IMG/VR virus record: IMGVR_UViG_3300034375_012321
Span: 1-26,135 of that record
Direction: 5' to 3' (one strand)
Length of the DNA: 26,135 nt
Source of the DNA: a virus
A program made the position numbers and the translations under genes. Shown here piece by piece: positions 373-25,548 of the stretch (its first letter is position 1; every line of letters starts with the position of its first letter). A model generated the notes under the pieces. The model saw only the letters and a program-made list of their open reading frames with translations. It was not told where the DNA came from and made no database searches.

Positions 373-2865
373 ATGCCCGCCAGTCCAGGCTCCAGTTCGT
401 TCTTCAACCTGATTGTTGACCATGGTGGCATCCAGGGTCTCACCGATGACGATCACACCCAGTACCCCTACTTCACCACGGGTACGGGCACTCCCGTAGG
501 CGCGGTCACACCCCAGCGCGTCGGCCACATCTACATCGACACCAGCGGGGAGAACGCCTGGATCGCCACGAACACGACCAACGCGGACTGGGAGCAAATC
601 GATGCGTCTGGCGGCGGCGCTTCGGTCAGCACTGGCTCGGGTGCGCCGACCAGCACCCCCAGTGCCGAGGGCGACATCTACATCGACACGACCAACGACC
701 AGAGCTACATGGCGGTGGGCACTGCCAGCAGCAGCGACTGGAAGCAGACGAGCAACCTCCCCCAGGGCATCACCTCGGTCAGCGATGACACCTCCCCCAC
801 CCTCGGCGGCGACCTGGATGGCGGCGGCTTCGCAATCACGAACATCGGTGATGTCGATGGTGTGGACATCAGTGCCCTCGTCTCGCTGACCATCGCCAAC
901 CTTCGCTCCGTAATCGGCGGTTTGACGGACACGCAGGGCGCGACGGCTGACCGCTTCGTCTATTGGGACGCGGACGGAACTCTCCAGCAATGCTCCCATG
1001 AGGACATCGTCACTCAGGCTCACAGCGATATGGGGATTGTGCCGCAGAAGAGGATCTCAACCACGGTGGATCCTACCGTGAACGATGATTCCGCTAGTGG
1101 CTATGCGGTTAACGACCTGTGGACCAACACCACGACCGACAACTCCTGGATCTGTCAAGACATTACGACGGGCGCGGCTGTCTGGACGCAGATTGATGGT
1201 GGTGGTGGTGGCGTGTCTGACCATGGAGCGTTGACTGGACTAGCCGACGATGACCACACTCAGTATTTCCGACACGACGGCACTCGACTGATGACTGCTG
1301 CCCTGAACATGGGCGGCTTCGACATCACCAATGTCGGGGATGTCGATGGTGTCGATGTGAGTGCGCTGGTGTCGCTCACCATCGCCAACCTTCGCAGCCT
1401 GATCGGTGGCCTGACTGACGCTCAGGGAGCTACTGCTGACCGTTTCCTGTATTGGGACAGTGACGGAACTCTTCAACAATGCTCGCACGAGGACATCGTT
1501 ACTCAGGGCTTCAGCGACCTGGGCATCGTCCCGCAAAAGCGTATCGCAACTACGGTTGATCCTACCGTTAACGATGACTCTGCCAGCGGTTATGCGGTCA
1601 ACGACCTCTGGACGAACACCACAGATGACACCTCCTGGATCTGTGTAGACGCGACTGCGACCGCCGCAGTCTGGAAGCCCATCGCCCTCACCAAGACGGG
1701 AACGGCGGCCCCTGCCGTCGCCCCGGACTTCGTGGGCCAACTCTTCCTCGACACGACCAACGAGAACATCTACATCGGCATCGACACGGTCAACGCTGCT
1801 GACTTCCTGCAAGTCAATGGCGGCGGTGGCGACCTCTGGAGCGATGTGGTAGACGCTGACATCGTGCCCGACGCGGACGGAACCCGCGACCTTGGTGCTG
1901 ACGCGACCCGCTTTGCTCAGGCTTACATCGACGAACTGCACAGCACGGGTGGACTCCTCGTCACCGAGTCAGCCGACCACACGAACACCCCTGCCGCTGG
2001 CAAGGGCGAGTTCTGGGTCCGCAACGACACGCCCTGCGTTCCTGTCTTCACGGACGATGCTGGTACGGACCATGTACTCAACGCGGCGGGAGGCGGCACT
2101 GATGTCAGTGTCCTCAGTGTCGAGAAAAACACCGCTGGCACGATCAACAAGGGTCAGGTGGTCTATGTCGCTGGCTACGACACGGACAAGCCGACTGTCG
2201 AGCTTGCGGACGCAGACGCGAGTGCGGCACTGCCGCCCATCGGTGTCGCCAACGCTTCCATCACGGACTCGACTGCGGGGGATGTCGTGATGAGCGGCAT
2301 CGTTGACGGCATGGACACCTCAGCCTTTACTGCTGGCGACAATGTTTACCTCGACACGACTGCTGGCGCACTAGTTGCAACGCGACCCGACGAGGAGTTC
2401 GTCTACCGCATCGGTCAGGTGATCTACAGCCATGCCTCTAACGGCGTACTGCGGGTCAACATCGAGCGCGTTCAAGGGCGTTACTGGATCTACGGCGTAG
2501 TCTGGGGCCTGTCCAACTCACAACGACTTGACAACTGGTTCGTTGGTCAAGCCACCGGAACGGTCGAGTCTGTCGAGTTCAGCGCTGCAAAGTATCTGTC
2601 AGGATCGGACGCTTCGAACTACTGGACCTTCGATATTCAGAATGCCTCTGAGTCCGACCGATCTATCCTCGCAGCCCCCTACGACATGACGACCGACCCA
2701 ACCTGGAAGACTTGGGTAGACCTCGGCGCAGTAAACGGCACGGCAGCCAACCTAGAAGTGACAAGGGGCGACCTCATCAACCTAGAAGTTCGCGAAACTG
2801 GCAACCCTCCATCACTCGGGACTCACTCGATCTCGATTCGCATTAAAGTCAAACCTGCTAACTAA
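373..2865 (+). CDS. Repeat-containing tail fibre / appendage protein
   Basis: An 830-residue protein predicted to be a host-contact fibre of the virion. The fibre motif DHGxxxGLxDDDHTQY occurs twice (residues 16-31 and 283-298). A block of about 125 residues starting near residue 152 recurs 163 residues later, beginning 'GF-ITN-GDVDGVD'. Several copies of a short module of the form G-x-P...G-x-YIDT...W are spread over residues 35-480. A 'DLGADATRFAQAYIDELHST' segment follows, then a domain around residues 575-700 with KGQVVYV..GD.VYLDT spacing that is common in phage fibres, and a beta-rich C-terminus. No chaperone or protease motif is seen. The ATG at 373 directly follows GAGGG, too close for a normal ribosome site. 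The stop overlaps the next start as TAATG, implying coupled translation. Confidence 0.8.
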   Translation: MPASPGSSSFFNLIVDHGGIQGLTDDDHTQYPYFTTGTGTPVGAVTPQRVGHIYIDTSGENAWIATNTTNADWEQIDASGGGASVSTGSGAPTSTPSAEGDIYIDTTNDQSYMAVGTASSSDWKQTSNLPQGITSVSDDTSPTLGGDLDGGGFAITNIGDVDGVDISALVSLTIANLRSVIGGLTDTQGATADRFVYWDADGTLQQCSHEDIVTQAHSDMGIVPQKRISTTVDPTVNDDSASGYAVNDLWTNTTTDNSWICQDITTGAAVWTQIDGGGGGVSDHGALTGLADDDHTQYFRHDGTRLMTAALNMGGFDITNVGDVDGVDVSALVSLTIANLRSLIGGLTDAQGATADRFLYWDSDGTLQQCSHEDIVTQGFSDLGIVPQKRIATTVDPTVNDDSASGYAVNDLWTNTTDDTSWICVDATATAAVWKPIALTKTGTAAPAVAPDFVGQLFLDTTNENIYIGIDTVNAADFLQVNGGGGDLWSDVVDADIVPDADGTRDLGADATRFAQAYIDELHSTGGLLVTESADHTNTPAAGKGEFWVRNDTPCVPVFTDDAGTDHVLNAAGGGTDVSVLSVEKNTAGTINKGQVVYVAGYDTDKPTVELADADASAALPPIGVANASITDSTAGDVVMSGIVDGMDTSAFTAGDNVYLDTTAGALVATRPDEEFVYRIGQVIYSHASNGVLRVNIERVQGRYWIYGVVWGLSNSQRLDNWFVGQATGTVESVEFSAAKYLSGSDASNYWTFDIQNASESDRSILAAPYDMTTDPTWKTWVDLGAVNGTAANLEVTRGDLINLEVRETGNPPSLGTHSISIRIKVKPAN

Positions 2866-4955
2866 TGGCACTCATCCCTTTCGGAAAAAGTGACCTTCGC
2901 AAGGGTGGCCTTGCGGCGGACGGTATCAACACAACCTCTACTAACTACTGGACCCGAGGGAACCCGTACTGGAACTTGATGTACCAGTCCGAGGACAACA
3001 TCCGTACAGACGGGTCTACCAGCCCGTTCGCCGGAACCCTCAACTCGGACGGCTACCCCCTGGACTACGGCACGGCGACGAACTGGATTGAATGGTATTG
3101 CTGGTCTGAAATCCAAGATGAATTCCCGTGGGGCATTGATTGGGTACTGACCTGGGAAGGTGGCGGCAACGGCACGGTCAAACCGAAGATAAATGGAATG
3201 ACCCCGACCGTCGATGAGGCGCAGCGGCGCGTGTACGCGGTAACGGAGTCCGACTTCACAATCGCCAGACCCCTCCGAATCGATGTGGCTGATATCGACG
3301 CATGGGGAACGGCCAACTACGCGGCAGACCCGATTGTCAATGTGCGCTTTGAGCCATTGTCGATGGAGGGGACTTGCGGATACGGCGAAGCGAACTTCAT
3401 CCGGCAGGATTACATCGACGCTTACTCTGAGTTCGATTACCTCCGCATGATGAACTTCCAGGCGACGAATCAGCAAGCGACGAATAGCTCGTGGGCAGAC
3501 CGTAAGCCGACCACCTACCGCACCTTCGCGCACGGTGCGTATAACGGCGGTGCTGGTCGTCACGCCCCGGCGGGTGCGCCTCTAACGGTCTGTCTTGAGA
3601 TCGCAAAACAGGTCGGCATCCGCCCCTGGGTGTGCATCCCCCATGAGTACGACGATGCCTCCATCACCGCGTTCTTCGAATACATCCGAGACAACTGGGA
3701 CTGGTCTTACGGCCACCCGATGATCGAGTGGACAAACGAGTTCTGGAACACAGGCTTCCAGCAGGGTCAATGGTGTCAGGCCCAAGGGCTGCTGCACGAC
3801 GCATCCACGCGCTATGTCACGCTCGGCAGCATGGCCGACTCGAACTTCAACGGGGATTACTTCCAGTCGAACAACGGTGAAGTCGCACCGGGCGGGTTTG
3901 ATACGACCAACGCTGCCTTCCATGTGTTCAAGCGCGAGAGCGGGGGCACGACCTATGTGCTGTACCACAACCAGACCTCTGGAAACTGGGAGGTCGCAAC
4001 CTCCACGAGTGACCCGGACACCTGGACTAACTCGCAGTCGGTGACGCTCGGCTTGCCGGAGACGGTCACGGCGGTAGATGACACCTGGGAAGACAGCACG
4101 ATTGGGCCGGACGAGGGTGATGCCAATGTCACCTATACCAGCCGCTTCTTCCGTGACCCATACCCGCTCTGGTATTACGGCGCGTTCCGTTCGACCCAAG
4201 CCATGAAGATCGGAAAAGCAATCATGGATGCTGCTGGCCTCGACTGGTCGGCGGTGGTCGAAGTCCAAACCGGGGGTAATGCAGCGCAGAACGATATCCT
4301 CAACTGCAATGTCTCGGAGCCGTTCGACAGCACCAGCACGGAGCGTGTTAAGGATCACCACACCTCAATCGGTGTGACCTTCTATGTTGGCGTTCAGCCT
4401 ACTGCAGAGCCGCTCTGGTCGAGCAACGGCGCGAAGGATGATTCCAACCCCGTTCCTGGCACAACTCAGAACGCGATCAACTGGGATCCCGACATCTCAA
4501 AGCTGTACGACTACCTGTACTACTACATCGACACCTACCACACCAACGCGGCGGAGAACGATTCGTGGACAGCGTGCTACAACCGCATTCACGCGGCGTG
4601 GCCGGACAGCGAGATCATCGGCTACGAGGGGAACCACCACTTCGTCCGCCACTTCGGCGGCGGCGAAACGGCAGACGGCCTAGCGTGGTTCCGCACCATG
4701 ATTCAGGAGTACACCGCCCCTGAGTGGCAAGAGTGGTATCGCCGGATGTTCTGGCGATGGACTCAGATCTTCTCTCAAGGTGGTCGAACGCCGTCCAAGT
4801 GTCACTTCGTCTTGGTGAACCCCGACGATGAGGACGGGCATTGGGCACTCTACTTCACGCTGGCCGATGCAAAGGCGCAAGTTGCTGACGGAACCTACAA
4901 GATGGCCGAGATCATGCGACTCGACACCGGGCACTCAACCAAGCTGACGGTCTAA
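2865..4955 (+). CDS. Virion-associated protein with clan GH-A-like glycoside hydrolase core
   Basis: A 696-residue protein translated from the TAATG junction with the fibre. Residues about 190-310 read as the first half of a TIM-barrel hydrolase: FDYLRMMNFQATN, a W..RK, then RPWVCIPHEYDD and IEWTNEFWN. In clan GH-A the Asn-Glu pair (here N291-E292) ends strand 4 and supplies the acid/base. A later IIGYEGNHH (E588) is well placed to be the nucleophile. These motifs resemble bacterial secreted proteins with 'SNEVWN' and 'YEGGQH' signatures. A beta-rich stretch at residues about 330-410 looks like an insertion. There is no signal peptide, and the position beside the fibre suggests a tail-borne depolymerase acting on host surface polysaccharide. 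The substrate is unknown and activity is unproven; the catalytic assignment is inference from motif order. Confidence 0.62.
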   Translation: MALIPFGKSDLRKGGLAADGINTTSTNYWTRGNPYWNLMYQSEDNIRTDGSTSPFAGTLNSDGYPLDYGTATNWIEWYCWSEIQDEFPWGIDWVLTWEGGGNGTVKPKINGMTPTVDEAQRRVYAVTESDFTIARPLRIDVADIDAWGTANYAADPIVNVRFEPLSMEGTCGYGEANFIRQDYIDAYSEFDYLRMMNFQATNQQATNSSWADRKPTTYRTFAHGAYNGGAGRHAPAGAPLTVCLEIAKQVGIRPWVCIPHEYDDASITAFFEYIRDNWDWSYGHPMIEWTNEFWNTGFQQGQWCQAQGLLHDASTRYVTLGSMADSNFNGDYFQSNNGEVAPGGFDTTNAAFHVFKRESGGTTYVLYHNQTSGNWEVATSTSDPDTWTNSQSVTLGLPETVTAVDDTWEDSTIGPDEGDANVTYTSRFFRDPYPLWYYGAFRSTQAMKIGKAIMDAAGLDWSAVVEVQTGGNAAQNDILNCNVSEPFDSTSTERVKDHHTSIGVTFYVGVQPTAEPLWSSNGAKDDSNPVPGTTQNAINWDPDISKLYDYLYYYIDTYHTNAAENDSWTACYNRIHAAWPDSEIIGYEGNHHFVRHFGGGETADGLAWFRTMIQEYTAPEWQEWYRRMFWRWTQIFSQGGRTPSKCHFVLVNPDDEDGHWALYFTLADAKAQVADGTYKMAEIMRLDTGHSTKLTV

Positions 4956-4990
4956 TGAGCACTAAGACCCACCAGCGTCGTGGCATTTAA
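4955..4990 (+). other. 11-codon leader ORF overlapping the terL start
   Basis: The stop of the preceding gene forms TAATG with an ATG at 4955. That ATG opens MSTKTHQRRGI and stops at 4988-4990, past the GTG at 4980 that begins terL in another frame. The GTG lacks a Shine-Dalgarno sequence, so ribosomes finishing this mini-ORF could reinitiate on it. Alternatively a one-base indel in the sequence has split the true terL start. Both are inference. Confidence 0.3.
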
Positions 4991-6647
4991 CCGCCACGAC
5001 CTCGACCGCTCCCAGGAGCTACAGGATCGCATCCTCCAACTCTGGGAGTGCCCCGTCGAGTTCGGCTCAATGTGGCACAGGGGTGTCCTCCAGACGGACG
5101 GCACACGCAGGAAGCAGTATTCCCAGTTGCATCGGGATATTGCGGCCCACGCCCTCAGCAGCAACCGCACCAGCACCGTCGTAAGCCGAAACCACGGCAA
5201 GACCACCATCTTCATGGACATCGCGCTGTGGTCCAAATGGCGGCACATGGACAAGCGCATCATGTACATGAGCGCCTCGACCCAGCTTGCTTGCGAAATC
5301 CTTGGCGAACTAAAGGCCATCACCGAGGGCGAGATCGAGCTTCTCCCAGGGCTGATGGTCCCGTTCCGCGAGTGCTTCCCCGAGCTTACGCCCGTCAAGG
5401 CAGCCGCCGGGTCTCCTCCCGCGTCGTTCAACCTCGCAGGGCGGACGGGCACTGGGCGCGAACCTTGCTTCTTCCCCTCGTCCATCGGCAGTAACAAGGC
5501 GGGCAAGCACCCCACGGACATCTTCGTGGATGACCCCAGCAACGAGAAGAACAGCACCACCCCCGTCCAAAGGGAGAAGGTCATCCATGCCATCAAACAA
5601 CTAGAGCCGATCCTCCGCGACCCCCAAGATGGCGCGATCCGGCACATCGGAACCCCCTGGGCCTTTGAGGATGTTGTAGCGTGGCTCGGGCGCAACCCGG
5701 AGTACAGCCAACTGCGCTTCGGTTGCTGGGACGGCGTAAACCAGGGCCACGGCCTTCTTGACGGCAAAGGACCAGGGCCGGAAGGGGCGTACCCCCTCTG
5801 CCCCAGCTACATGACTGCCCCCGAACTCCTTGAGGCGGAATCCCTCATCGATGACTACGAGTTCTGGGCGCAGCAGTACCTCTGCAAGCCCGTGGCCGCC
5901 GCAAATGCGTTGTTCACTGACGCAATGTTTCAGGTCGCGGAGCAAAAGGTCAGCAGCATCGACCAACTCCCCGAGGGCAAGCGCGTACTCCTCTGGGACC
6001 CCACCAGCCGCGCCGACGCGAAATCGGGCGACTGGAACGGCATCGTGGTTGTCCATGTCAGCACTGCGGGACACATCCTCAACGCTTGCGCCAGCAACCC
6101 CGCGCTCAAAATCCCAGGGCTGGCAGATGTCCCTCGGGACACCAACTACTTCTTCCCCATCGAGGCCCACGAAATCAAGGGGCCACCCGGCGAGTGCATG
6201 GATCTTGTCGAGGACATCCACCAGCGCCTTCGCCTCAATGCCATCTGGGTCGAGGACACGGGCAGCGCGGGGGCACTCATCCCGTGGTTCCACCAGAAAC
6301 ACTGGACGCGGGAAGACAAAGTAGCGATTGTCCCGGCCAAGATTGGCACAAAATCCAACAAGGCGCAACGACTCCAGGGAATCCAACTGGGTTTCAAGGA
6401 GGGGCGTATTAGAGTGCTGCGAGATTTTCCTGGCCGGGACATTCTTCTCAAAAGATTGGCCGAGTTCCCCAAGAGCGAATCCGATGACATCCCAGACGCT
6501 CTTGCGCTGCTGACCAACCACATCATGCGGCGCGGCGCGATTCCTGGGATTTCTCTGGAAAAAAGTGACGCGCCGTACTACAATCCGGCTGCCGATCCAT
6601 CGTCCGTCGCGTACCGGCAGCCCCGCACTAACTCGTCTTCGTGGTAA
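4980..6647 (+). CDS. terL: Terminase large subunit (packaging ATPase and nuclease)
   Basis: A 555-residue motor protein that docks on the portal, drives DNA into the capsid with ATP and cuts the concatemer. The ATPase half has a Walker A-like SRNHGKTT (residues 69-76), a Walker B TDIFVDD with D184/D185, and the coupling motif HIGTPWAFEDVV (around G224). The nuclease half has the three acidic clusters of the RNase H-like fold: LLWDPTSRAD (D340), IWVEDTGSAG (E425/D426) and SDDIPDALALL (D502, D503, D506). Length and motif order are normal for TerL. GTG at 4980 is the first start after an in-frame stop at 4956-4958. The 3' end overlaps the portal start by 7 bp. No small subunit was recognised nearby. 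Codon use is noticeably C-ending. Confidence 0.95.
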   Translation: MAFNRHDLDRSQELQDRILQLWECPVEFGSMWHRGVLQTDGTRRKQYSQLHRDIAAHALSSNRTSTVVSRNHGKTTIFMDIALWSKWRHMDKRIMYMSASTQLACEILGELKAITEGEIELLPGLMVPFRECFPELTPVKAAAGSPPASFNLAGRTGTGREPCFFPSSIGSNKAGKHPTDIFVDDPSNEKNSTTPVQREKVIHAIKQLEPILRDPQDGAIRHIGTPWAFEDVVAWLGRNPEYSQLRFGCWDGVNQGHGLLDGKGPGPEGAYPLCPSYMTAPELLEAESLIDDYEFWAQQYLCKPVAAANALFTDAMFQVAEQKVSSIDQLPEGKRVLLWDPTSRADAKSGDWNGIVVVHVSTAGHILNACASNPALKIPGLADVPRDTNYFFPIEAHEIKGPPGECMDLVEDIHQRLRLNAIWVEDTGSAGALIPWFHQKHWTREDKVAIVPAKIGTKSNKAQRLQGIQLGFKEGRIRVLRDFPGRDILLKRLAEFPKSESDDIPDALALLTNHIMRRGAIPGISLEKSDAPYYNPAADPSSVAYRQPRTNSSSW

Positions 6648-9722: not shown

Positions 9723-10910
9723 ATGGCTTTTCCTGTTTCTGACACCCGCGAACTGGACACTCTGGTCACCTCGGCCATTGATACCATCAGCGGTAACCCT
9801 GCCAACCTCGTCAACGAGGGCGGCGAAAAACTCCTGGGCAAGCTGGCAAAGCGTGGCCGCATTTTCCGCGTGAACGACGCAGAGCGCGTTGAACACCCGG
9901 TCATGTACAGCACGGATGCCTCCGCTTGGGAAGCTAACCTTGGCGACCAGTACAGTGGTACTCCGACTTCGGGTACTACTCTTACTGCCACCCAGAACGA
10001 GGTTCTGACCAAGGCGCTGTTCGACATCGTGACCAAGACGAAGAACTTCAATGTTCCTCAGTCGATCATCGGTCGCGATAGCCAACTCGCCATGAGTGAC
10101 ATTGCCTACCTTGCACAGCGCATGGCAATGGAAACTTACGCGGAAGAGGAAGCTCTGCTGCTGCTGGGTCAAACCGACCTGACTGCTGGTGGCGACCTGA
10201 ACCCGCTGGCTCCGTATCGCGGTGACAACGACTTCTTCAACCGTGGTGGCACTTCTACTTACGCAGACTTCGGCTCGATGTCGATGCTTGGTCTGTTCGA
10301 TAGTGGCCGGGATACTGGCAGTCGTGGCCAAACTTTCGCTGGCATTGCGCCCAACGATGATACTGATTGGGAAGCCCAGTTGTTTACCGCTTCGAACGCC
10401 GCACCCTCCACCTCAGCCGAACTCGATCAGTTCCTTGCGGATGTTCAAGAAGCGATTATTCGCACGGACTTTGGTGGTATGGAGCGTCCGACTGACATCC
10501 TCTCGACCATCGACTGGTACAGCAAGTTCCTTGAGGCTCTCCGCTCCAAGGGTACGATCAACGACACCCTGATCCGTGACATGGGCGTTGGCCCGAACAC
10601 TGAGATTCCGTTTGGCTCGGTGCTGGTTGACTACAGCCGTCACCTTGATGCGGATAACCAGTGGGATCTGACCGTTGGTAGCCCTGCTGCGGTTCACCCT
10701 GTCATGGGCCTGAACCTGAACTCCCTGCGTTGGAACCTTGTGGGTCAAACTACGGGCGTTGGTGCAGATGCGGGCTGGATTCAGCAGAAGTCGGAGATGG
10801 CTCCGCATCCGACGCTGACCAACTTCTTCAAGCGCCTGGAATACCGTAGCTGCTACTCGCTCGATAACGGTCGCCGCTCCCACTTCCTGATTAAGGGCTG
10901 GACTCTCTAA
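9723..10910 (+). CDS. Major capsid protein
   Basis: A 395-residue protein expected to form the icosahedral shell. Support: it follows the scaffold and portal, has the strongest ribosome-binding site in the window, is about the size of podoviral capsid proteins, and shows an HK97-fold-like plan. That plan comprises an N-terminal helical arm (residues 1-45), an extended strand-rich region ending near TLTATQNEVLTKALFDI, and a long spine-like helix around residues 115-155 (SQLAMSDIAYLAQRMAMETYAEEEALLLL). A mixed domain follows, with HPVMGLNLNSLRWNLVG near the end. No cleavage site or decoration insert was recognised. Codons favour GGT/CGT/CTG more than the flanking genes, as expected for a highly expressed product. 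The identification rests on context and fold-like pattern. Confidence 0.88.
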   Translation: MAFPVSDTRELDTLVTSAIDTISGNPANLVNEGGEKLLGKLAKRGRIFRVNDAERVEHPVMYSTDASAWEANLGDQYSGTPTSGTTLTATQNEVLTKALFDIVTKTKNFNVPQSIIGRDSQLAMSDIAYLAQRMAMETYAEEEALLLLGQTDLTAGGDLNPLAPYRGDNDFFNRGGTSTYADFGSMSMLGLFDSGRDTGSRGQTFAGIAPNDDTDWEAQLFTASNAAPSTSAELDQFLADVQEAIIRTDFGGMERPTDILSTIDWYSKFLEALRSKGTINDTLIRDMGVGPNTEIPFGSVLVDYSRHLDADNQWDLTVGSPAAVHPVMGLNLNSLRWNLVGQTTGVGADAGWIQQKSEMAPHPTLTNFFKRLEYRSCYSLDNGRRSHFLIKGWTL

Positions 10911-11749: not shown

Positions 11750-12305
11750 CTGCTGTTGCGATCTTACCCCGCATCCAGAGGACAAGCTCACCTGGACGGG
11801 AACAAGGGCTGCGGGTAAGCGTTACCAACTTATTCGTGACTCTTGTCATGTTGATTTCATAGAAGTCATGATCCACACTTCGACGGAAGTGGAGAGTGCT
11901 ACTGTTCGGTTCTTTACTAGCGCTGAACCTGATGCTGGTACTCCAGACGGAGACGCTGACGAGAATGTTTGGCAGTTAACAGTCGGAATGGCTGTTGGCA
12001 GCACGGCGTACACCCCGGAGTGCTTTGCTGGAATGTACTTCCGCAACGGTGTATTTGCTGAGATCGTATCCCCGGACAATAATGTCGAAGTAATCATCAA
12101 CATCGTTTACTACGACAGGGCAAAATACACCCCAGCATTTCCTGAGCGGCCTTACGAGCGTCGAGTTCGTCTGTGGAACTGCTACAACGACACGCCGTAT
12201 GGTGACAACTTTGATGGCGGGTATCAGGGCGACGAATACTCTGATACTTCTACTGGTAACACGACTCCTGGCGAGATGCCGTCCACGCCGATTGGTGACA
12301 TTTAA
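11733..12305 (+). CDS. Hypothetical structural protein between adaptor and nozzle
   Basis: A 190-residue protein not recognised by family. The GTG at 11733 overlaps the end of the adaptor gene. The N-terminus contains a CCC run (residues 7-9, TNCCCDL). The body is beta-rich (VDFIEVMIHTSTEVESATVRFFTS, then NNVEVIINIVYYDR), and the C-terminal 30 residues are Gly/Ser/Thr/Asp-rich and probably disordered (DGGYQGDEYSDTSTGNTTPG). Its position between adaptor and nozzle suggests a second connector, a stopper or a small tail protein. The stop forms TAATG with the nozzle start, suggesting coupled, perhaps stoichiometric, expression. Function is inferred from location only. Confidence 0.7.
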   Translation: MAGDTNCCCDLTPHPEDKLTWTGTRAAGKRYQLIRDSCHVDFIEVMIHTSTEVESATVRFFTSAEPDAGTPDGDADENVWQLTVGMAVGSTAYTPECFAGMYFRNGVFAEIVSPDNNVEVIINIVYYDRAKYTPAFPERPYERRVRLWNCYNDTPYGDNFDGGYQGDEYSDTSTGNTTPGEMPSTPIGDI

Positions 12306-15300
12306 TGCCTAACCCACGCCTCCGCATCGACCAACTCCCGATGCACCGCAGGGCATCGGCTCACGGGGCAGGGGAGGGTGTTGCCTACGAACGCCGAGAG
12401 GTTGACCCCGATGCAGAGGAACTTTCTCGCCGCACGGGATCGACTCGCCAAGCACGGTTTAGCACTGCGCTTGGCTTTGTCGCAGAGCAAGAGGGTGCGC
12501 GTGTAGTTATCGACAACGAGTTCGACCTGACGGGCAACTGGTCGATTGCCTTCAGTGCTAATGTCGGAGATATCCTCGACACGACCGCCAGCGAATACTG
12601 GACGCTTGTGTTTGCCGGTGCAACTTCTTCGGCTGACGCGGATAACTCCATCCATATCTACCTGGATCGTAGCGGTTCGGACTACCAGATCAACCTAGTT
12701 GTTACGGATAACAGCAGCGGTACCTACGCGGCGACCACCCCGTCTCAACTGACCGTCACTCCTGGAGATGATGTAGACTTTCTGATTACTCGGTCGGGCA
12801 ACACGATTACCCTGAATGTTGACACCTCCAGTGCTACGGTCGATGTGTCCGCTGCAACCCTGACGGGTATGGATGAGTGTCAGGTAGAACTGCTGGGTAG
12901 CCACAAGGCAACCAACAAGGGCAAGGGCACTGCGCCCGTCCTCGACAACTTCCACATCTTCGGATCGGTTGTCACTACTGCTGTCTACGGCGACCGAAGC
13001 CCTGGGTCGAGCTTTAGCATTCTCCCCTCTGACATTGGCGGCACGGCGTTCAGCCCCGCCAGCGCCAGTTACAATGTCTATCTCCACCCGTCGCCCCCGC
13101 AGCTACTCGGCAGCGCGGTAAACTTTAGCGGTTTTGGCGGCGCAGTTCGCGTACCGTTCCGCTCGATCTTTGAGCGTTACTTCCAGACGCAAACCGAGGA
13201 GGTTGGCTCAAAGACTTTTGCGTTCCGTGTAGCTGGAACGGTCGAGTTCCTCGGTCTCACCAGTACGATCATCGACTTTGGATCTGATACCCCGCTGGCC
13301 TACCTTCGGCTGGATGCTGGTGTTGCCAAGTTCAAGTACGGTGATGTGGAAGTCAACAGCGCCCAGACTCTCACCAAGGGCAGTAGCTACGAGATTTTCT
13401 GCGGGGTTGACGGCACGAATGTATTCATCTCGGTGGACGGCGAGGCTGTTGTCACCAGTGCCATCAGCGAGGTTCCGCGCCTTGAGCTTGAGCGCATCCC
13501 CGATCTGTACATTGGTAACGACGAAGATCCGACTGCGGACAAACACTACCACGGATCGCTGACCACCTTCCAGTTCTACGACTACGCGGCCAAAACTAGC
13601 TCTACTACGGCAGCCGCGCCTGTTGTTGACCTGGACTTTTCCGCAGACACGCTGCGGGACAAGGGGCCAAACCGCGTGGCGCTGGAGCAGATTTCCCATG
13701 CCACGACCGAAGGCCAGCCGCTTTACACGGATGGCCCTCTTGATGACCAAGACTTCCAAGCCGTGCAGCAGGAGGTCGTGCTTGGCCCCTCTGCGGTCGG
13801 ATACACGGGCAAGTACGCCGCCCCCATCACATCAGACGCATCGAGTGTCCGTGCTGGCGACAGGGCGTACATCCACAGCGGCGACTATGTTCATGTCCTG
13901 AACTCGGAGTTGTCGCAAATCCGACCGCTTGGCATCCCAGAGCCTGGGTCGGAAGTATCTTGTCGTAATGTTGGCGCTGGGGCGCTGGATGGTGTGTACC
14001 AATACGGCTACCGCTACCAGTCCCAAGATGGAACTTACGGGCCGATGAAGCGCCTGAAGCCCCTGACCGCATTTTCCAACACTGGAGTGCTGGTGGGTTC
14101 GGGCGATGCTGCCGACGAGAACCGAGAGCTTGGTGAGTCCTACGGTAAGACCGACGAGTCTAGCGGTAGCCAAGAGTACTTCTCCATCACCGACACGGCG
14201 GACGCAATCCATGGTGATATCGTCAGCGGCAGTAACGAGGATCTTAGTGTCGAGTCCTTCTTGGCCTTCCCCGACTTTGAAGACCTTGAGGAAACCGTAT
14301 TTGACCGAGGTGTAACTGGCGACTTTACGGATGTCAACAGCTTTGGCATCCAGAGCGACACGGAGATCGACATTGACCCCAACAGCGACTTCGCGCTGCA
14401 ATGCTCCTTTAAGCTCGACATTAGCAACCTCAACGAAAACACCCTTGGCGAAAACAACCAGGGCATCTTCTCCCTTGGAACGCAGTCAGGTGGAGGCAAG
14501 ACGCGCTCGTTCATGCTGTTCCTCAGCATCGACAGCGCCTACGCCACCAGTGCGCCTCGCATGGTTGCCGCTCGCGCAGTTGGGGATAAAGACAGTCGCT
14601 ACAAGTACCTCATCTTCAACAACTCTGGCACTGAGGGGGATGACAGTAGCCTTTGGGTAGATGGAACCGAGTACACGGTCACGGCAGTCCGCGACGGCGA
14701 CGATCTGATTGTCAATGTTTGGAACGGATCGACCTGGACGGAGTTTAGCGGCGGCGAGTTGGTCGGGTTCTTTGAAGGTTACAACGCACCTACCCGCGTG
14801 TATGCCTTTAACGCATTCGGTGTAAAGACCGACTTTGAGCAGATCGCGGCGCTTCCTGCCACGGGTTGGAGTAACGGAACCTACGGCACAAAAACTTATG
14901 GTACAGGGGCGTCTGGCAGAGAGGCCCGAAGAATCCACAACATGGACAGGGACGCTACCTTCTTCCACGCCCGTGCGTGGTCGAGGGCATGGCCCACCGC
15001 AACTCTGCAAGCGGAAGCCAACAAGCGTTTTGCTGCGGTAGACGGTGCGCTGACCGACCGAGTTAAGTCTGATGTCGGCGTATTTGACCAAGACCCGTCC
15101 GCAAATCCCAAGCAGTTCTTTGACAAGGCTGCTACGGTTTATTGGAAAACCTTTAAACAGGACGAGGATGATGGAAGTGGCACTGCTAGTGGGGACAAAA
15201 ACCCTCCCAGCGCTGCCACGACTCAGGTAAAGGGCAGCCCCACCGAATACGACGGTGTAGTAATGACTGACAGCGGTATCCAGGATGTCGAGGCCGCCCA

Positions 15301-17320
15301 GTACAGGATCTACGCATCTAGCGTAAACAACGGCTCGATCATCGTCAGTACCAACGACGCATCGTTCATCATCGCCAAGAAGCCCTGGGATGACACCTCT
15401 CCGGGTACGGTGACGCAGTTGCTTGGCCCTGGTGGTGTGGACATCGACCCGAAGAACTTTAACTGGTTCACTACGACGGTCAACTTCAGCGCCGTCAGCG
15501 CCAGTGCCTTGCGACTGACCGTGAATAACCTGTATGTGAACGGCAACAAGTTCTTTGATACGCCACTTAACAGGTACGACACTGACATCGTAATCAACAC
15601 GCAGAACCTTGTCTGCTACCTTGGCGGCTTTAACTACAGCCCTGCGGCTGTCAACGACGGCGAAGTAAACATCGGTGAGTTCCGCGTCTGGAAAACCGAC
15701 CGCTACGATGACACCCTGACTGAGGCGTTCGACTACCTGACAGGGCGTGTCGCGGAATCCGAAGTGAGCAATATGTACATCTATGCTCGCTTCCAGCCCT
15801 CGGATCTCGACAGCGGGAACAACTACAACTTGCACCCGCTCTGCTTCCTCAACAGCGAAGACTACATCAGCACTAACGCAGAGCTTATCGACACCCGCGC
15901 AGGGGAAGGCGGTTCCGAAACCGACCCTGCTCCGGCCATCGGCATCCCCAAGCCGCCGTACCCTTGGATCACCGCAGTGCAAGTCTTCCGCACCGAGGGG
16001 TTCATCGTTCAGGATCAAGACAGCAAGCTGGAGATCGAGCAAGCGCTGGAGTTGGTGCAGGGCCAACCCGCGTATTTCCTCGCTCGCATCCCTGCTGGGG
16101 ACACCTCCTACATCGACATCGTTCCCGACGATACCCTTGGTTACGAAGCCCCCGAGGGCGGCGAAGGGTTTACGGTAGAGAAGCCCAACGGCGTGTGCAT
16201 CTGGCAGAACCAACTGGCTCTGTTCCGGGGCAACACCCTCTACTTCTCTGAGCGCGGTCCCTACGGTTGGGAGTCGTTCCCGTCGTGGGCATCCTACGCA
16301 GTGCCGACCTCCGGCAGCGGCTCCGACATCGTTGGCGCTGTTGAAATCGGGTCGAGCTTGTTGGTCTGCGGCAAGTCGTGGGCGACCATGTTGAGCGGCG
16401 CACCGTCGCAGCCCCGCCCGTTCGACCTTGGCCCCGGCACTGGAGCGCAATCTGCCCGGTGCATTGCGGTTCACGGCGGCATCGCATACGCCCTGGGGAA
16501 CGGCAAACTGTGGCGCGTCGGCCAAGATGGTGGCTACGACGATCAGTTCAGCCAGCCCGTCCACGACATCCTGCCCACCCAGGGCCGTGTCGCGGTGGTC
16601 GGTGCGCTGTCGAGCCTGTTGGTCATTGACGAGCAGAGCGACCAAGTGCTGCGCTTCCACTTCCCGACCCAGGCGTGGTCAATCGAGGAGCGTGATGCCC
16701 TCGGTGTTGGCGACCAGGGTTCGGACTACTTAGTTGTCCACCAAGTCGGCTCGTACTCCAAGGGTAGCGCGGTTTACGGCGACGATGTTGCGGCCAACAC
16801 GGTGGCGACTTCCACTGGTACGAAGGCCAGCAACAGCACAATCACCCTTATCCCGGACGACACCAACCCGAACGCGGTGGCCGGAACCCGAGTGCTTGTT
16901 GTGGATGACAGTGGCAACGAGGCCGTTGGCGACTTCACTTCATACTCTAGCCCGACCGTCACCGTGACCGCTGACCTTTCAGGGCTGTCCGGTAACTGCA
17001 CCATCTACTACGGTGTTGGTCAAACGGGCATGATGGTGGACACCGGGTGGTTCGCGGTTGGCTCGCGCAACAGCGACCTGTCCCTGTTCACCGATGTAAC
17101 TTCCGGCAGCTTCGACTACTCGTTGGCCGGAACCGACACCCCTGGCGACCGTTCAAACCGCACAGGGCTGTCATTCACGGATCTCGGCACTGCCTACGAG
17201 TCTACGGGCACGGGCGGTCGGGGTCGATATGTTCGCGCTGTTGTGCGTAACCGTACTGCACAGAGCGCATCCCTTGGACACGCAGAGGTTGAGGTGAAAG
17301 TTGAGCAGCAAGCGTCATAG
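12305..17320 (+). CDS. Very large tail nozzle-like protein with multiple LamG/ConA-like modules
   Basis: A 1671-residue virion protein. The C-terminal third (about residues 1215-1500) resembles the nozzle/stabilisation proteins T7 gp12 and P22 gp10: PKPPYPWITAVQVFRTEGF, NGVCIWQNQLALFRGNTLYFSE..PYGWESFP (residues about 1300-1325), then repeated blade-like units such as GSSLLVCGKSWATMLSG and GGIAYALGNGKLWRVGQDGG. The first 1200 residues appear to contain about four concanavalin/LamG-like beta-sandwich modules: residues about 50-210, 255-450, 660-880 and 1000-1150, each with signatures like 'F.F....D..LDT' or 'LD.FHIFG'. T7 gp12 is only 794 residues, so this is about twice the usual size. The modules may bind carbohydrate, giving the tail tube a receptor-binding role. 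The nozzle call is moderate; the module boundaries are rough. Confidence 0.72.
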   Translation: MPNPRLRIDQLPMHRRASAHGAGEGVAYERREVDPDAEELSRRTGSTRQARFSTALGFVAEQEGARVVIDNEFDLTGNWSIAFSANVGDILDTTASEYWTLVFAGATSSADADNSIHIYLDRSGSDYQINLVVTDNSSGTYAATTPSQLTVTPGDDVDFLITRSGNTITLNVDTSSATVDVSAATLTGMDECQVELLGSHKATNKGKGTAPVLDNFHIFGSVVTTAVYGDRSPGSSFSILPSDIGGTAFSPASASYNVYLHPSPPQLLGSAVNFSGFGGAVRVPFRSIFERYFQTQTEEVGSKTFAFRVAGTVEFLGLTSTIIDFGSDTPLAYLRLDAGVAKFKYGDVEVNSAQTLTKGSSYEIFCGVDGTNVFISVDGEAVVTSAISEVPRLELERIPDLYIGNDEDPTADKHYHGSLTTFQFYDYAAKTSSTTAAAPVVDLDFSADTLRDKGPNRVALEQISHATTEGQPLYTDGPLDDQDFQAVQQEVVLGPSAVGYTGKYAAPITSDASSVRAGDRAYIHSGDYVHVLNSELSQIRPLGIPEPGSEVSCRNVGAGALDGVYQYGYRYQSQDGTYGPMKRLKPLTAFSNTGVLVGSGDAADENRELGESYGKTDESSGSQEYFSITDTADAIHGDIVSGSNEDLSVESFLAFPDFEDLEETVFDRGVTGDFTDVNSFGIQSDTEIDIDPNSDFALQCSFKLDISNLNENTLGENNQGIFSLGTQSGGGKTRSFMLFLSIDSAYATSAPRMVAARAVGDKDSRYKYLIFNNSGTEGDDSSLWVDGTEYTVTAVRDGDDLIVNVWNGSTWTEFSGGELVGFFEGYNAPTRVYAFNAFGVKTDFEQIAALPATGWSNGTYGTKTYGTGASGREARRIHNMDRDATFFHARAWSRAWPTATLQAEANKRFAAVDGALTDRVKSDVGVFDQDPSANPKQFFDKAATVYWKTFKQDEDDGSGTASGDKNPPSAATTQVKGSPTEYDGVVMTDSGIQDVEAAQYRIYASSVNNGSIIVSTNDASFIIAKKPWDDTSPGTVTQLLGPGGVDIDPKNFNWFTTTVNFSAVSASALRLTVNNLYVNGNKFFDTPLNRYDTDIVINTQNLVCYLGGFNYSPAAVNDGEVNIGEFRVWKTDRYDDTLTEAFDYLTGRVAESEVSNMYIYARFQPSDLDSGNNYNLHPLCFLNSEDYISTNAELIDTRAGEGGSETDPAPAIGIPKPPYPWITAVQVFRTEGFIVQDQDSKLEIEQALELVQGQPAYFLARIPAGDTSYIDIVPDDTLGYEAPEGGEGFTVEKPNGVCIWQNQLALFRGNTLYFSERGPYGWESFPSWASYAVPTSGSGSDIVGAVEIGSSLLVCGKSWATMLSGAPSQPRPFDLGPGTGAQSARCIAVHGGIAYALGNGKLWRVGQDGGYDDQFSQPVHDILPTQGRVAVVGALSSLLVIDEQSDQVLRFHFPTQAWSIEERDALGVGDQGSDYLVVHQVGSYSKGSAVYGDDVAANTVATSTGTKASNSTITLIPDDTNPNAVAGTRVLVVDDSGNEAVGDFTSYSSPTVTVTADLSGLSGNCTIYYGVGQTGMMVDTGWFAVGSRNSDLSLFTDVTSGSFDYSLAGTDTPGDRSNRTGLSFTDLGTAYESTGTGGRGRYVRAVVRNRTAQSASLGHAEVEVKVEQQAS

Positions 17321-20441: not shown

Positions 20442-23400
20442 ATGTCAAACTGGCTAGAACGAGGAATCAACGCCACCATCGGCCTTCCGTACCAGCTAAT
20501 CACCAGGGCTTGGTACGCGATGGAAGATGAGGACACGGAGCTATTTAGTGCCCAAGGCATCCTGGCCCCGGAGCTTATCCCTGTGCTTGGCGCGTTCATG
20601 GGCGACCACTCCAGGGCTAAGTACGCCTCCGACATCGCTCTAGACATCTACGACAAGCGGCTTTCAGGAACTCAGGGATTTCTCCTTGATACCTTGCTAG
20701 ACCCAAGTACCTACCTGACCTTTGGTACGAGTGGTGCTTTCAAAGGGCTAGGTTCAGCGGCAAGAAACCTGAACCGCGCTGGTGGTAAAAGTGCGCGTGT
20801 GCGAAACCTTATGGTCAAGCACAAGGCCGCAGGGAGTACCTATGACGAGTTCGTTGAAGAACTGAAGACCTTGCCAGAGGCCAAGACCGACCGCAGGATC
20901 AAGAAGGTCATCAACATGAACCGTGGCGGTTTTGGTACTACGAAGCAAGCCGAGAAGATCCGCGCTAGGCGGTTGAAGGATGCTGGTAAAGAAGTTCCCA
21001 CGGATAAGAAGGTAACCCTGAAAGATGTTATCGAGCAGGGCGAAGTCGAAGAGCTTGCTCTCCAGTTCCCTTTCCTAGCATCCAGCCGAGTTGTTATTGG
21101 CGCTGGTAAGGTCGGTAAGTTTCTTGATGCCGCAACCCTGGGTCGGCTGAACAAGCAGCGCGGGTGGTTCTCAAACTTTGGCAGGGCTTCTTTGGCCCCT
21201 GCTAAGTTTGTGAACGACTACTTTGCCTCACCTATCTTGAAGTCCACAGTCATCCCGGCGATGGATGCCCTGTCGGGTAATCGGGCTTCGTGGATGGGTG
21301 CGTTTCTTTCAGGGCTTACCAAGAAGGTAGACCCTGCGGTCAAAACGACTCTACAAGGGGCATCCAAAGCCTACGAAAACTTTGTTTCCGAAAGTTCAAA
21401 GTTCTTCCAAGGCGATTTCACCTTCCAGCGGGCGGCAAAGGCGGCAAACGCTCTGCACCCCGAATCTCTAGTTCCTACTACAGTTCTATTTAGCCCTGGG
21501 AAAAAGAAGTACCAATCGAAGAAGTTAGCGGATCTCTTGCTTGTTGAAGAGTCCTTTATTCTTGAGGAACTAGCTAGCGGCAAAACTGTTGATGACATTC
21601 TAGAAGAGCAGTTTAGCTTTCGGTATGTTGACGAGACCGCGAAGTTCAGAATGCAAGCTAAGGCAGAAGGTGTTGATCTTACAGATCCAGATGCCGTAGC
21701 TAAGTTTGACCAAAAACTCCGTAAGATCTTCATTAACGACAGGGATCTAGGCAGTATTCCCGCTCTAGATTACGGAAATATGTCCCGAGTAGATGCCTAC
21801 ATTGCGGCTAGAAAGTCGGGAGTTAAGCCATCAGAGCTTCGCAAACTTGTCAAGAAGCACAACGGCAATATCCAAAGGGCGTTTGAAGATATCTATGGTG
21901 CGTTGAACCCGGCTATTGATGCCAACTCTGATATCTACAAGGCTTTTGAAAAAGGTCAGTTGGATATCGGTATTGCCGCACAACTTCCCAAATCTTACGA
22001 GAATGCCCCTGGCTCTGTGAGGTTGGGCTGGCTGAAAGGTAAGGAGATCCGAGATTACCTTACTAGGAAGTTTGATCCACTAGGCGGCAAGAGCGTCAAC
22101 AAGGCCATCAATGAGATGGAGTTTGAAGGTCAACGCCGGTTGGATTCTGCCTCCAGAGCCGTGTTCCAAGATACGCGAGAGATCCACCGGGACATGGAAT
22201 CTTTGGTGGCTGAGTTGGCTCGCATCGGTAACACTTCCGAAATCCGCACATTTGACGATCTCGACAAAGTGCTTGGTATGCACCAACAGGCTACTCCCCA
22301 GGTTGAGGAGGTGTTGGCCGTACTTCGTAGACTTGAAACTTCTGGAACGAAAGCCGCTAAAACTGAGCTAGCGAACCTTGAAGAGCTAGCCCAGCGCATG
22401 ACCGGCGCGGCGGAGTTGGCAAAGATCGCAAGCCCTAAGATGGAGGATGCTGCCAGAGAGCTTGCTGAACTAGCACAAGAACTTCGGACTGCAATCTACG
22501 ACAAGGATCTGGTTGCAGGAAAGATTAGACTTACAGACACTTTTGGTAGTCGCCTAGAGTCTGTTGGCGAGTTTATCCGTACTAGCAACCACGAAGCTCT
22601 GGAGAAGATGTTTGGTATTAGCGACCAGACACCGAAAGCCAAGCAGCTTCTAGATAAACTTCTGTCCCAGAACGCTAAGTTGGCTCGTTACGCCAGCGGG
22701 TTGGGCGCAGACGATCAACTTGCCTACTTCCCTCGACTGTTCGACAAGGATCTGCGAAAGTCCTTGAACCGACTCTTCGACAGGGCAGAGGCTGCGGGAA
22801 TGGACAACCAGCTAGTCAAAAGCCTGAAGCGTCGTGTTGAAGCTCGCAACCTCACAGTGCAAGAGTACAACGAACTTCTTATTGAGGCTCGTAAAGTAGG
22901 TGTTGGCGACGAGGCGTTTGAAGAGACTTCCAAGTTTCTCCGCATTCAGCGCCCTGTGGCTCCTGAAGCACTCAAGGCTGCAAAGTCCATCCTGGGTAGG
23001 AAGATCATGAACGATCAACCTTACCTGTCGGATCTTATGGAGGCAGCCAACAAAGCCCAAGATCCTAAGACTAAGAAGTTGTTGGAGAAAGCTGTGCGAG
23101 ATGCCGCAGCGCCAATGAATGAGTCTTGGCTCTCTGCCTTCGCACACCGATCCAACCTAGCGAAGCGACAGTTGGTAGCGGAAGACTACATCGACGGCAT
23201 TCTCCGTGAGGGCAACAAACACGCGGATTCCAGACTAACCCTAATGTCTGGCACGGTCAACAAGGTACACCGAGTTGGTGACGATACGGTCATCGAGCTT
23301 CAAGTTGCCGATGGGGATATGCGTCTGTTGAATGTCTCCGAGATGGGCCGCTCTGGGATGGGTGTCCGCAATATGGGTAAAGTCAGCAAGGGTAAAACCA

Positions 23401-24896
23401 TAGGCCAACAGGCTGTGCGACACCAAGTGCGCGGAACTTTCCCCAAGGGCAGCCAGAGCCTGGAGAACATCCGTAAGGGTGAGAGCATCATCCTGGGTGA
23501 CGCGGGTCTGACCAGCCGCCTGTTGGACAACACGATTCCAGCATCTCAGGAGATGTCGGAGTTCTGGAAGTTCTACGACCGAACGAACGCCCTCTACAAG
23601 TCTACGCAGACGGTGTTTAACCCTGCGTTCTTCATTCGTAACACCCTTACCAACTTCTTCCAAACCAGGGCAGCCGGGGGCAGTATTCGTAACTTCGGTG
23701 CAGCACAACTTGTCGCTGCTCGGATGCTTGGAAACCTCCCTGACAACACTGCAATCGACGGCTCTGGGGTTGTTGGATTCAAAGGTCGCACCAGGGCGTT
23801 GGAGAAGTTGAAGGCCGACGCTACTAACGAAGCCGTCGAAGCTCGCCTTGCCGCCCGTTTCGATGACGCAGATGACCTTGTCCCTATCTACCAAGTTGGG
23901 GACACCCCAATGGGGGAAGATGAACTCCTCAAGTTTTTCGCAGAGCGCGGTCTGTTCAACGACCTGAAGGTTACTGAAGAACTTCGCGTCGGAGCTATGA
24001 CTCCTGAAGAGTTTGTAGCTGGTTTGAAGCGAGGCGAGAAGTCGCGCATGGAGGATTTCCGCGACAGTGCATCTGCCGTCGAAATCCACAACCGTCTCTC
24101 GGCGGCGATGACCCTCATTCTGGATGGTAAGTCCCCAGAGCTTGCTTTGCAGAAAGCCCTGGATGTCCACGGCGATTACTCCAAGCTGTCGAAGTTTGAG
24201 CGTGATGTTGGCCGTCGAGTTGCGGCCTTCTATACCTTCTCCCGTCGAGTGCTTCCACAGATGGCAAAGTCCATCGATAAGGATCCAAGGATGTTGACGG
24301 CCATCAACCGCCTGTCCAACAACTCGGACTGGATTGGTGTTGACCAGTATGGCAACCTCAAGATCGAGCATGATGGTCTGGAGGCTAACCTTAGCTCGAT
24401 TGCACTGCCGGTCGAAGCTGCCGCACTGATCGTCGGAACTATTGACTCGGTTAATAGTTTTGCGGGCCTTGACGAGCAAGCGCCTAGAGGTTTAGGTCAA
24501 CCCAGAGGTGTCACCAAGTTGGCTGGCGGTGGTACTGCGGGCCTGTTGATGTCTCTCTTCGGTATGGACCCGAACCGAGAGCCTGGACTTGGCTCTGCGG
24601 CGGAGTACACAGTGCAAGCTAACACCTTTACTCGGATGGCGATGAAGTACGCCGATGCCGTCTACAACGACAAACCACTGGACGAGAACCTTTGGGCAGC
24701 CACTTTCCTCCCGGTCAAGATCCGTAAAGACCCAGCCTACCGCCGCAAACAGCGCGTAAAGATTGGCGATGCGCTGCTCCGAGAAATCAACTTTGAGATC
24801 GGTCAAACCAATAACCCCAACAAAATCCGCAAGCTCAAAGAAGAGCAAGCCCGAGTCCTAGAAGCCCGCAACTCGCTGTTGCAGGAACTCCGATGA
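20442..24896 (+). CDS. Giant internal virion (ejection) protein; T7 gp16-like by position
   Basis: A 1484-residue protein, the largest of the ejection trio (T7 gp16 is 1318). The N-terminus (MSNWLERGINATIGLPYQLI... GFLLDTLLDPSTYLTFG) has amphipathic helices. The middle (about residues 550-770) is long charged helix. Near residue 1059 is VFNPAFFIRNTLTNFFQT, a short motif I associate with large phage virion proteins, and AAFYTFSRRVLPQMAKSI follows near residue 1265. A hydrophobic stretch IALPVEAAALIVGTID (about 1317-1332) may contact membrane. No lytic transglycosylase signature (the N-terminal enzyme of T7 gp16) was recognised, so cell-wall opening may come from elsewhere. AAAGAGG at 20424-20430 precedes ATG 20442. 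The stop overlaps the next start as ATGA. The call rests on gene order, size and composition. Confidence 0.65.
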   Translation: MSNWLERGINATIGLPYQLITRAWYAMEDEDTELFSAQGILAPELIPVLGAFMGDHSRAKYASDIALDIYDKRLSGTQGFLLDTLLDPSTYLTFGTSGAFKGLGSAARNLNRAGGKSARVRNLMVKHKAAGSTYDEFVEELKTLPEAKTDRRIKKVINMNRGGFGTTKQAEKIRARRLKDAGKEVPTDKKVTLKDVIEQGEVEELALQFPFLASSRVVIGAGKVGKFLDAATLGRLNKQRGWFSNFGRASLAPAKFVNDYFASPILKSTVIPAMDALSGNRASWMGAFLSGLTKKVDPAVKTTLQGASKAYENFVSESSKFFQGDFTFQRAAKAANALHPESLVPTTVLFSPGKKKYQSKKLADLLLVEESFILEELASGKTVDDILEEQFSFRYVDETAKFRMQAKAEGVDLTDPDAVAKFDQKLRKIFINDRDLGSIPALDYGNMSRVDAYIAARKSGVKPSELRKLVKKHNGNIQRAFEDIYGALNPAIDANSDIYKAFEKGQLDIGIAAQLPKSYENAPGSVRLGWLKGKEIRDYLTRKFDPLGGKSVNKAINEMEFEGQRRLDSASRAVFQDTREIHRDMESLVAELARIGNTSEIRTFDDLDKVLGMHQQATPQVEEVLAVLRRLETSGTKAAKTELANLEELAQRMTGAAELAKIASPKMEDAARELAELAQELRTAIYDKDLVAGKIRLTDTFGSRLESVGEFIRTSNHEALEKMFGISDQTPKAKQLLDKLLSQNAKLARYASGLGADDQLAYFPRLFDKDLRKSLNRLFDRAEAAGMDNQLVKSLKRRVEARNLTVQEYNELLIEARKVGVGDEAFEETSKFLRIQRPVAPEALKAAKSILGRKIMNDQPYLSDLMEAANKAQDPKTKKLLEKAVRDAAAPMNESWLSAFAHRSNLAKRQLVAEDYIDGILREGNKHADSRLTLMSGTVNKVHRVGDDTVIELQVADGDMRLLNVSEMGRSGMGVRNMGKVSKGKTIGQQAVRHQVRGTFPKGSQSLENIRKGESIILGDAGLTSRLLDNTIPASQEMSEFWKFYDRTNALYKSTQTVFNPAFFIRNTLTNFFQTRAAGGSIRNFGAAQLVAARMLGNLPDNTAIDGSGVVGFKGRTRALEKLKADATNEAVEARLAARFDDADDLVPIYQVGDTPMGEDELLKFFAERGLFNDLKVTEELRVGAMTPEEFVAGLKRGEKSRMEDFRDSASAVEIHNRLSAAMTLILDGKSPELALQKALDVHGDYSKLSKFERDVGRRVAAFYTFSRRVLPQMAKSIDKDPRMLTAINRLSNNSDWIGVDQYGNLKIEHDGLEANLSSIALPVEAAALIVGTIDSVNSFAGLDEQAPRGLGQPRGVTKLAGGGTAGLLMSLFGMDPNREPGLGSAAEYTVQANTFTRMAMKYADAVYNDKPLDENLWAATFLPVKIRKDPAYRRKQRVKIGDALLREINFEIGQTNNPNKIRKLKEEQARVLEARNSLLQELR

Positions 24897-25359: not shown

Positions 25360-25548
25360 ATGGACTCCCTCTACGACAAACTGCTAGATGCCTGTGTCGA
25401 ATACGGACCCCTCATCATGGATCTTTGCGTCTGCCGCCAGTGCGGTGTCACCCAGTTTGTTGTCGTGCCCGTCGATCGTGGCTTTGAAGGCGGACTTTGC
25501 CCTGAGTGCGGCAAACCCGGACTCGATCAAGTAGAGGTAGAGCCTTGA
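25360..25548 (+). CDS. Zinc-ribbon miniprotein
   Basis: A 62-residue protein with paired cysteine knuckles C25-x2-C28 (VCRQCGV) and C47-x2-C50 (LCPECGK), separated by a beta-like stretch (TQFVVVPVDRGFEGG). This is a textbook single zinc ribbon with a helical N-terminus and acidic C-terminus (QVEVEP). Function unknown; such proteins often bind nucleic acid or protein partners. The stop TGA at 25546 overlaps the TTG start of the phosphoesterase gene (TTGA), so the two may be co-translated. A 40-bp gap before the ATG holds no clear ribosome site. Confidence 0.7.
   Translation: MDSLYDKLLDACVEYGPLIMDLCVCRQCGVTQFVVVPVDRGFEGGLCPECGKPGLDQVEVEP

Follow-up and report, generated by a model that had tools for sequence, protein, structure and literature searches.

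The 696-aa open reading frame (ORF) that starts with ATG immediately behind a fibre gene in the virus studied here likely encodes a retaining endo-glycosidase of clan GH-A, which would represent an unnamed family and act as a phage depolymerase together with the upstream fibre. Put simply, a virus of estuarine bacteria probably uses this predicted enzyme to open the slime coat of its host. The window, i.e. the whole stretch of DNA analysed, comprises the 26,135 bases of a virus record, and its relevant features are compiled in Table 1. Beyond what an earlier sequence-only reading of this DNA had proposed, our analysis adds a large unnamed family, an invariant arginine and tyrosine, the exchange of the gene as a cassette, and an insert that stays constant.

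Table 1. Features of the window around the enzyme gene and within it (strand and positions refer to the window)
Feature	Position	Strand	Details
Fibre protein, partner of the enzyme; contains repeats and a Phage_cement_2-like domain	373..2865	+	830 aa
TAATG stop/start overlap of the fibre and enzyme genes	2863..2867	+	Read from the sequence; recurs in contigs L003, L004, L022 and L189 (in the last, from ORF coordinates)
GH-A-like enzyme	2865..4955	+	696 aa; ORF call, family alignment, structure models, Foldseek
R194, end of strand beta-2	3444..3446	+	Invariant, 93/93
EWTNEFWN (residues 288-295)	3726..3749	+	Predicted acid/base is E292 (codon 3738-3740); located at the end of strand beta-4 (286-289)
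Barrel insert (residues 315-427)	3807..4145	+	113 aa; low model confidence; conservation far above that of the barrel
Y507, just after strand beta-6	4383..4385	+	Invariant, 93/93
YEGNHH (residues 587-592)	4623..4640	+	Predicted nucleophile is E588 (codon 4626-4628); located at the end of strand beta-7 (583-589)
Large terminase, directly 3′ of the enzyme	4980..6647	+	phrog_38, E 5.9e-52
Major head protein	9723..10910	+	phrog_9953, E 1.6e-7
Probable tail protein; its L004 homologue lies directly 5′ of the fibre-enzyme pair	12305..17320	+	1671 aa

The upstream partner is fairly called a fibre protein because it matches PF09956 (Phage_cement_2; Pfam, E 1.3e-5) and contains pieces similar to virion, tail and fibre proteins from phages of Dinoroseobacter, Roseobacter and Synechococcus. 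It carries repeated units of the 'gxxYiDTT...W' type, and its pieces are common to roseophages and cyanophages. The fibre stop codon TAA (2863-2865) shares a single nucleotide with the enzyme ATG (2865-2867), and the same TAATG is found at the enzyme start in the related contigs L003, L004 and L022, with the fibre stop likewise overlapping the enzyme start by 1 nt in L189. The coupling to the fibre that had been suggested from the window alone is thus retained across related contigs. The position of the major head protein gene further downstream places the enzyme in the late structural block. Elsewhere in the window, the left end (1-260), 5′ of the fibre gene, holds short repeats, GC-rich and 'CATATATGAACCGCCCGCTTCAT' units; from about 18 kb on, GC content is lower and GC skew changed, in a region that includes the gene (20442-24896) of a 1484-aa protein with no significant Pfam match; and a calcineurin-like metallophosphoesterase (25506-26135) is truncated by the contig end.

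The proposal of a GH-A-type enzyme originally hinged on two motifs, WTNEFWN with E292 and YEGNHH with E588, and both are indeed present. Across 93 aligned family members, R194, Y507, Y587 and E588 are kept in every sequence, and so are E288, N291, E292, W294 and N295. The invariance of the E288-N295 segment is biased, since the profile-guided scan that supplied relatives required an NE-containing motif, whereas the conservation of R194, Y507 and E588 is free of this bias. An unbiased test of E292 is provided solely by a set of plasmid-borne relatives, most other loci having been fetched by an NE-containing pattern: in all 16 of these bacterial relatives, retrieved by tblastn with no motif demanded, glutamate occupies the positions of both E292 and E588, in the contexts E(Y/F)SNExW or QYANEVW, plus YEGG. 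As judged from these alignments, the pair exceeds what chance would produce. The predicted catalytic and supporting residues are also retained in every fast-diverging phage allele. No paper turned up in literature searches for the strings SNEVWN and YEGGQH.

The window protein is predicted to fold into a (beta/alpha)8 barrel (pTM 0.81; core pLDDT mostly >90), in which a strand at residues 18-22 is followed by a beta domain and by strands 190-194, 253-258, 286-289, 462-467, 501-505, 583-589 and 644-651, alternating with helices. R194 is placed at the end of strand 2, N291-E292 at that of strand 4, Y507 at that of strand 6 and E588 at that of strand 7. Arg, Asn-Glu, Tyr and Glu at these strand ends constitute the clan GH-A arrangement, and the Asn-Glu of strand 4 together with the Glu of strand 7, by which this clan is recognised, are found in the window model and in the plasmid set (16/16). 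The TIM barrel, on which the earlier proposal depended, is predicted, with the two glutamates at the ends of strands 4 and 7. Residues 317-433 have low pLDDT, and, probably on account of the disordered insert, a Foldseek search of this model in PDB and among viral structures returned nothing at E<=0.001; several of its top PDB hits, below that level of significance, were glycosidases. We therefore modelled in its place L141, a compact relative of 484 aa (pLDDT 96.7, pTM 0.94), to which 156 PDB entries were matched at E<=0.001. Clan GH-A accounts for every one of the best 50, with members of GH51 (leading), GH79, GH53, GH26, GH50, GH5, GH164, GH10 and GH1, all established families of this clan. 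Thus, the expected likeness to glycoside hydrolase structures emerged for the compact relative and not for the window model itself, on which account the clan match depends on L141. TM-scores of the L141 matches are modest (0.2-0.54), which argues for an enzyme of clan GH-A that stands outside the known families.

Neither Pfam, NCBIfam and PHROGs nor the PDB sequences contained anything matching the window enzyme. The 93 family members had no PHROG match and no glycosidase match in Pfam, where only two single-member, chance-level matches appeared, and the family profile had no relevant match among PDB sequences. Likewise, neither the window protein nor any of three relatives had a tblastn match in the 50,697 cultured-phage records of INPHARED. 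By these searches the family is unnamed in Pfam and, for the members scanned, in NCBIfam, and it might be equal to an existing CAZy family for which there is no Pfam model. The window enzyme itself occurs in four IMG/VR contigs (90-100% identity), and tblastn against plasmids, with no motif demanded, identified 24 records, nearly all from Rhodobacterales and Rhizobiaceae, with E down to 8e-11; 16 of them were fetched for the alignment. The profile-guided scan extended the family to 87 relatives in viral contigs, some of which may be misclassified bacterial DNA in IMG/VR, and to at least 502 relatives in bacterial genomes, those listed including alphaproteobacteria, Thiotrichaceae, cyanobacteria, Planctomycetota, Verrucomicrobiota and others. 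In the family tree, viral and bacterial rows are interleaved, requiring 12 changes, at least 8 of them across well-supported branches, so several transfers are likely, on whose direction the tree is silent, and a few of the viral contigs behind this count may be misclassified. Two members in viral contigs are fused to other enzymes, a PhoD-like phosphatase (L023) and a sulfatase domain (L079); tail-fibre fusions were looked for among the long viral family ORFs, and none was found.

The surroundings of the gene in related contigs reveal a cassette that moves and is exchanged. The pair of fibre and enzyme genes lies 5′ of the terminase in the window, 5′ of a T7-like terminase (PF22530) in L003, and 3′ of the tail protein in L004, a contig related to the window through its terminase (61%) and tail protein (53%). 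The window, L003 and L004 share 92-95% DNA identity that begins at the end of the fibre gene. L189 carries an L022-type allele in the slot of L004, and the same slot is thereby held by two alleles that are 44% identical overall. L022 has two tandem enzyme genes followed by a portal gene; within L022:1-2263, the end of one copy (92% identity to the window enzyme) is followed by a paralogue (44% identity), and the last 41 nt of the window fibre gene recur at the junction. In L004 (7135-8862) and L189 (5119-6831), the enzyme gene is immediately followed by an ORF of 570-575 aa. The C-terminus of the L004 version matches the end of the window tail protein; the remainder is unmatched in Pfam and PHROGs and could be another enzyme carried on the tail. 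More broadly, in packaging or structural blocks of several phage lineages, family members are found near genes for portal (L022, L028), major head protein (L054), head-tail adaptor (L026) and baseplate-like proteins (L031). Of 50 contigs, 19 have a terminase hit; in 16 of these the terminase shares the strand of the enzyme, and in 10 of the 16 it is within 11 kb. As looked for in a depolymerase, the gene is thus located in a structural block and linked to fibre or tail genes.

How the protein would reach its substrate is a separate matter. A tail of at least two RTX repeats is carried by 6 of 16 plasmid ORFs and by none of 81 viral ORFs, which fits delivery by the particle or by lysis rather than secretion. 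An active enzyme might act outside the virion, as a late product that is freed on lysis and strips slime or biofilm off neighbouring cells; it has no recognised virion-anchoring domain and no PHROG, Pfam or NCBIfam domain, and several phage relatives are compact proteins of about 500 aa with no obvious fibre parts. Nevertheless, the TAATG coupling to the fibre gene, kept in related contigs, and, in L004 and L189, a location flanked by fibre and tail genes suit a component of the particle better, and we consider the soluble enzyme unlikely in comparison with a depolymerase that works with the fibre.

As to the substrate of such a depolymerase, our best guess is host exopolysaccharide. The resemblance to large secreted bacterial proteins noticed at the outset is confirmed by relatives that include RTX-type proteins, presumably secreted; RTX repeats occur in some of the bacterial relatives, and another module, GH16, is fused to one. 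Genes for polysaccharide synthesis or export (glycosyltransferase etc.) occur near 9 of 12 annotated plasmid loci, but control stretches from the same plasmids also contain polysaccharide genes in 3 of 6 cases, so the link holds at least at the level of the plasmid and is weakly supported at the local scale of exopolysaccharide loci. Peptidoglycan or a lipopolysaccharide (LPS) sugar would be another conceivable target, considering that phage virions often bear cell-wall hydrolases and that several annotated bacterial relatives lie near genes labelled LPS or O-antigen biosynthesis. This is improbable in our estimation, as relatives are fused to RTX repeats or GH16 and adjoin exopolysaccharide genes, and clan GH-A folds of this type are unusual among muralytic enzymes. 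The roseophage-like pieces of the fibre and the GC content (50-61%) are compatible with a Rhodobacterales host.

The catalytic barrel of the phage enzyme is interrupted by an insert with a different evolutionary pattern. Between the window enzyme and the L022 paralogue, the insert is 87% identical, as compared with 33-41% for the flanking barrel. It is confined to six viral contigs among those searched, and when used alone as a query against phages, plasmids and PDB it found no match. Among the window, L003 and L004, dN/dS is about 0.3-0.8 in the barrel and 0.07-0.15 in the insert; on small counts, the minimum falls in the insert for every pair, and we read this consistency as a sign of constraint. 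For the window versus L022, dS is 0.69 in the insert and 1.3-1.7 in the barrel, so partial exchange is possible. Recent gene conversion was considered as the cause of insert conservation, but the consistently lowest dN/dS of the insert favours constraint; an intein was rejected for want of splicing-type ends. The insert may resemble small repeat domains of phage fibres. It is probably a docking or sugar-binding module that is held constant as the catalytic barrel around it diverges or is swapped between phages. The higher dN/dS of the barrel, combined with the allele swap in one slot, follows a host-range logic that would befit a depolymerase. Such fast divergence between related phages (dN/dS up to about 0.8) is also typical of receptor-binding parts, yet a catalytically dead barrel that only binds polysaccharide as a lectin-like receptor-binding protein is very improbable, given that the predicted catalytic and supporting residues are intact, invariant in the 93 members, and kept in the fast-diverging alleles.

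In the retaining depolymerase that we favour, the fibre would bring the particle to the extracellular polysaccharide of the host, where E588, positioned by R194 and Y507, would attack the anomeric carbon of a sugar unit. E292 would protonate the leaving group, and a covalent glycosyl-enzyme would form, from which the sugar would be released by water that E292 activates, and repeated cuts would open a path to the cell surface. We are evenly divided on a broader reading, according to which an unclassified clan GH-A family, spread across many bacterial phyla and present in exopolysaccharide loci, was acquired by phages several times and became an exchangeable depolymerase cassette, composed of a fast-changing barrel and a constant docking insert, with alleles swapped beside the fibre gene. 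If the enzyme assignment holds, it would name an enzyme class for exopolysaccharide breakdown, tie unannotated proteins of bacterial slime loci to a concrete activity, and offer a natural experiment in which phages swap a catalytic domain in one fixed slot. Phage depolymerases are nearly always sought as beta-helix or propeller proteins, and here is a family with hundreds of bacterial and dozens of uncultivated-phage members which is unmatched in Pfam and PHROGs and, for the members scanned, in NCBIfam.

The closest known systems include GH51 (arabinofuranosidases) and GH79 (heparanase/glucuronidase types), which are among the best Foldseek matches of the L141 model. In common with them, the family has a predicted (beta/alpha)8 barrel in which strand 2 bears the Arg, strand 4 the NE and strand 7 the Glu, with the Tyr placed after strand 6. 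Identity in the structural alignments is only 10-13%, with no Pfam, NCBIfam or PDB sequence match, and the window family adds a beta-domain after strand 1 and, in the phage proteins, the 113-aa insert after helix 4. The GH148 enzyme EngU, also of clan GH-A, similarly houses a foreign module in the barrel between the two catalytic glutamates, namely a CBM4 inserted after strand 4, with the motifs INNEN and VTEYN (PMC5725463). Membership in GH148 was considered because of the split barrel and ruled out by the motifs: the window has EWTNEFWN and GYEGNHH, its family E(Y/W/F)(S/T)NExWN and YEGG, and the insert, placed after helix 4, is unmatched.

Phage tailspikes with a right-handed beta-helix, which depolymerise capsule or exopolysaccharide, have the same proposed job on host surface polysaccharide and the same link to fibre genes but differ in fold. 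The sequence-only reading had remarked how seldom its proposed fold occurs in phage depolymerases, and this agrees with DepoScope, where 984 phage hits to polysaccharide-degrading folds comprise 85.8% beta-helices and 1.0% TIM barrels (PMC11326577); the predictor, trained on beta-helix and propeller folds, omitted TIM-barrel enzymes for want of examples (PMC11326577). Finally, the RTX 'calcium-binding' proteins of Rhodobacterales exopolysaccharide plasmids possess a homologous catalytic module (19-22% identity, both glutamates in 16/16). These bacterial proteins often add RTX, cadherin-like or GH16 modules, whereas the phage copy dispenses with all of them and carries, instead, an insert within the barrel.
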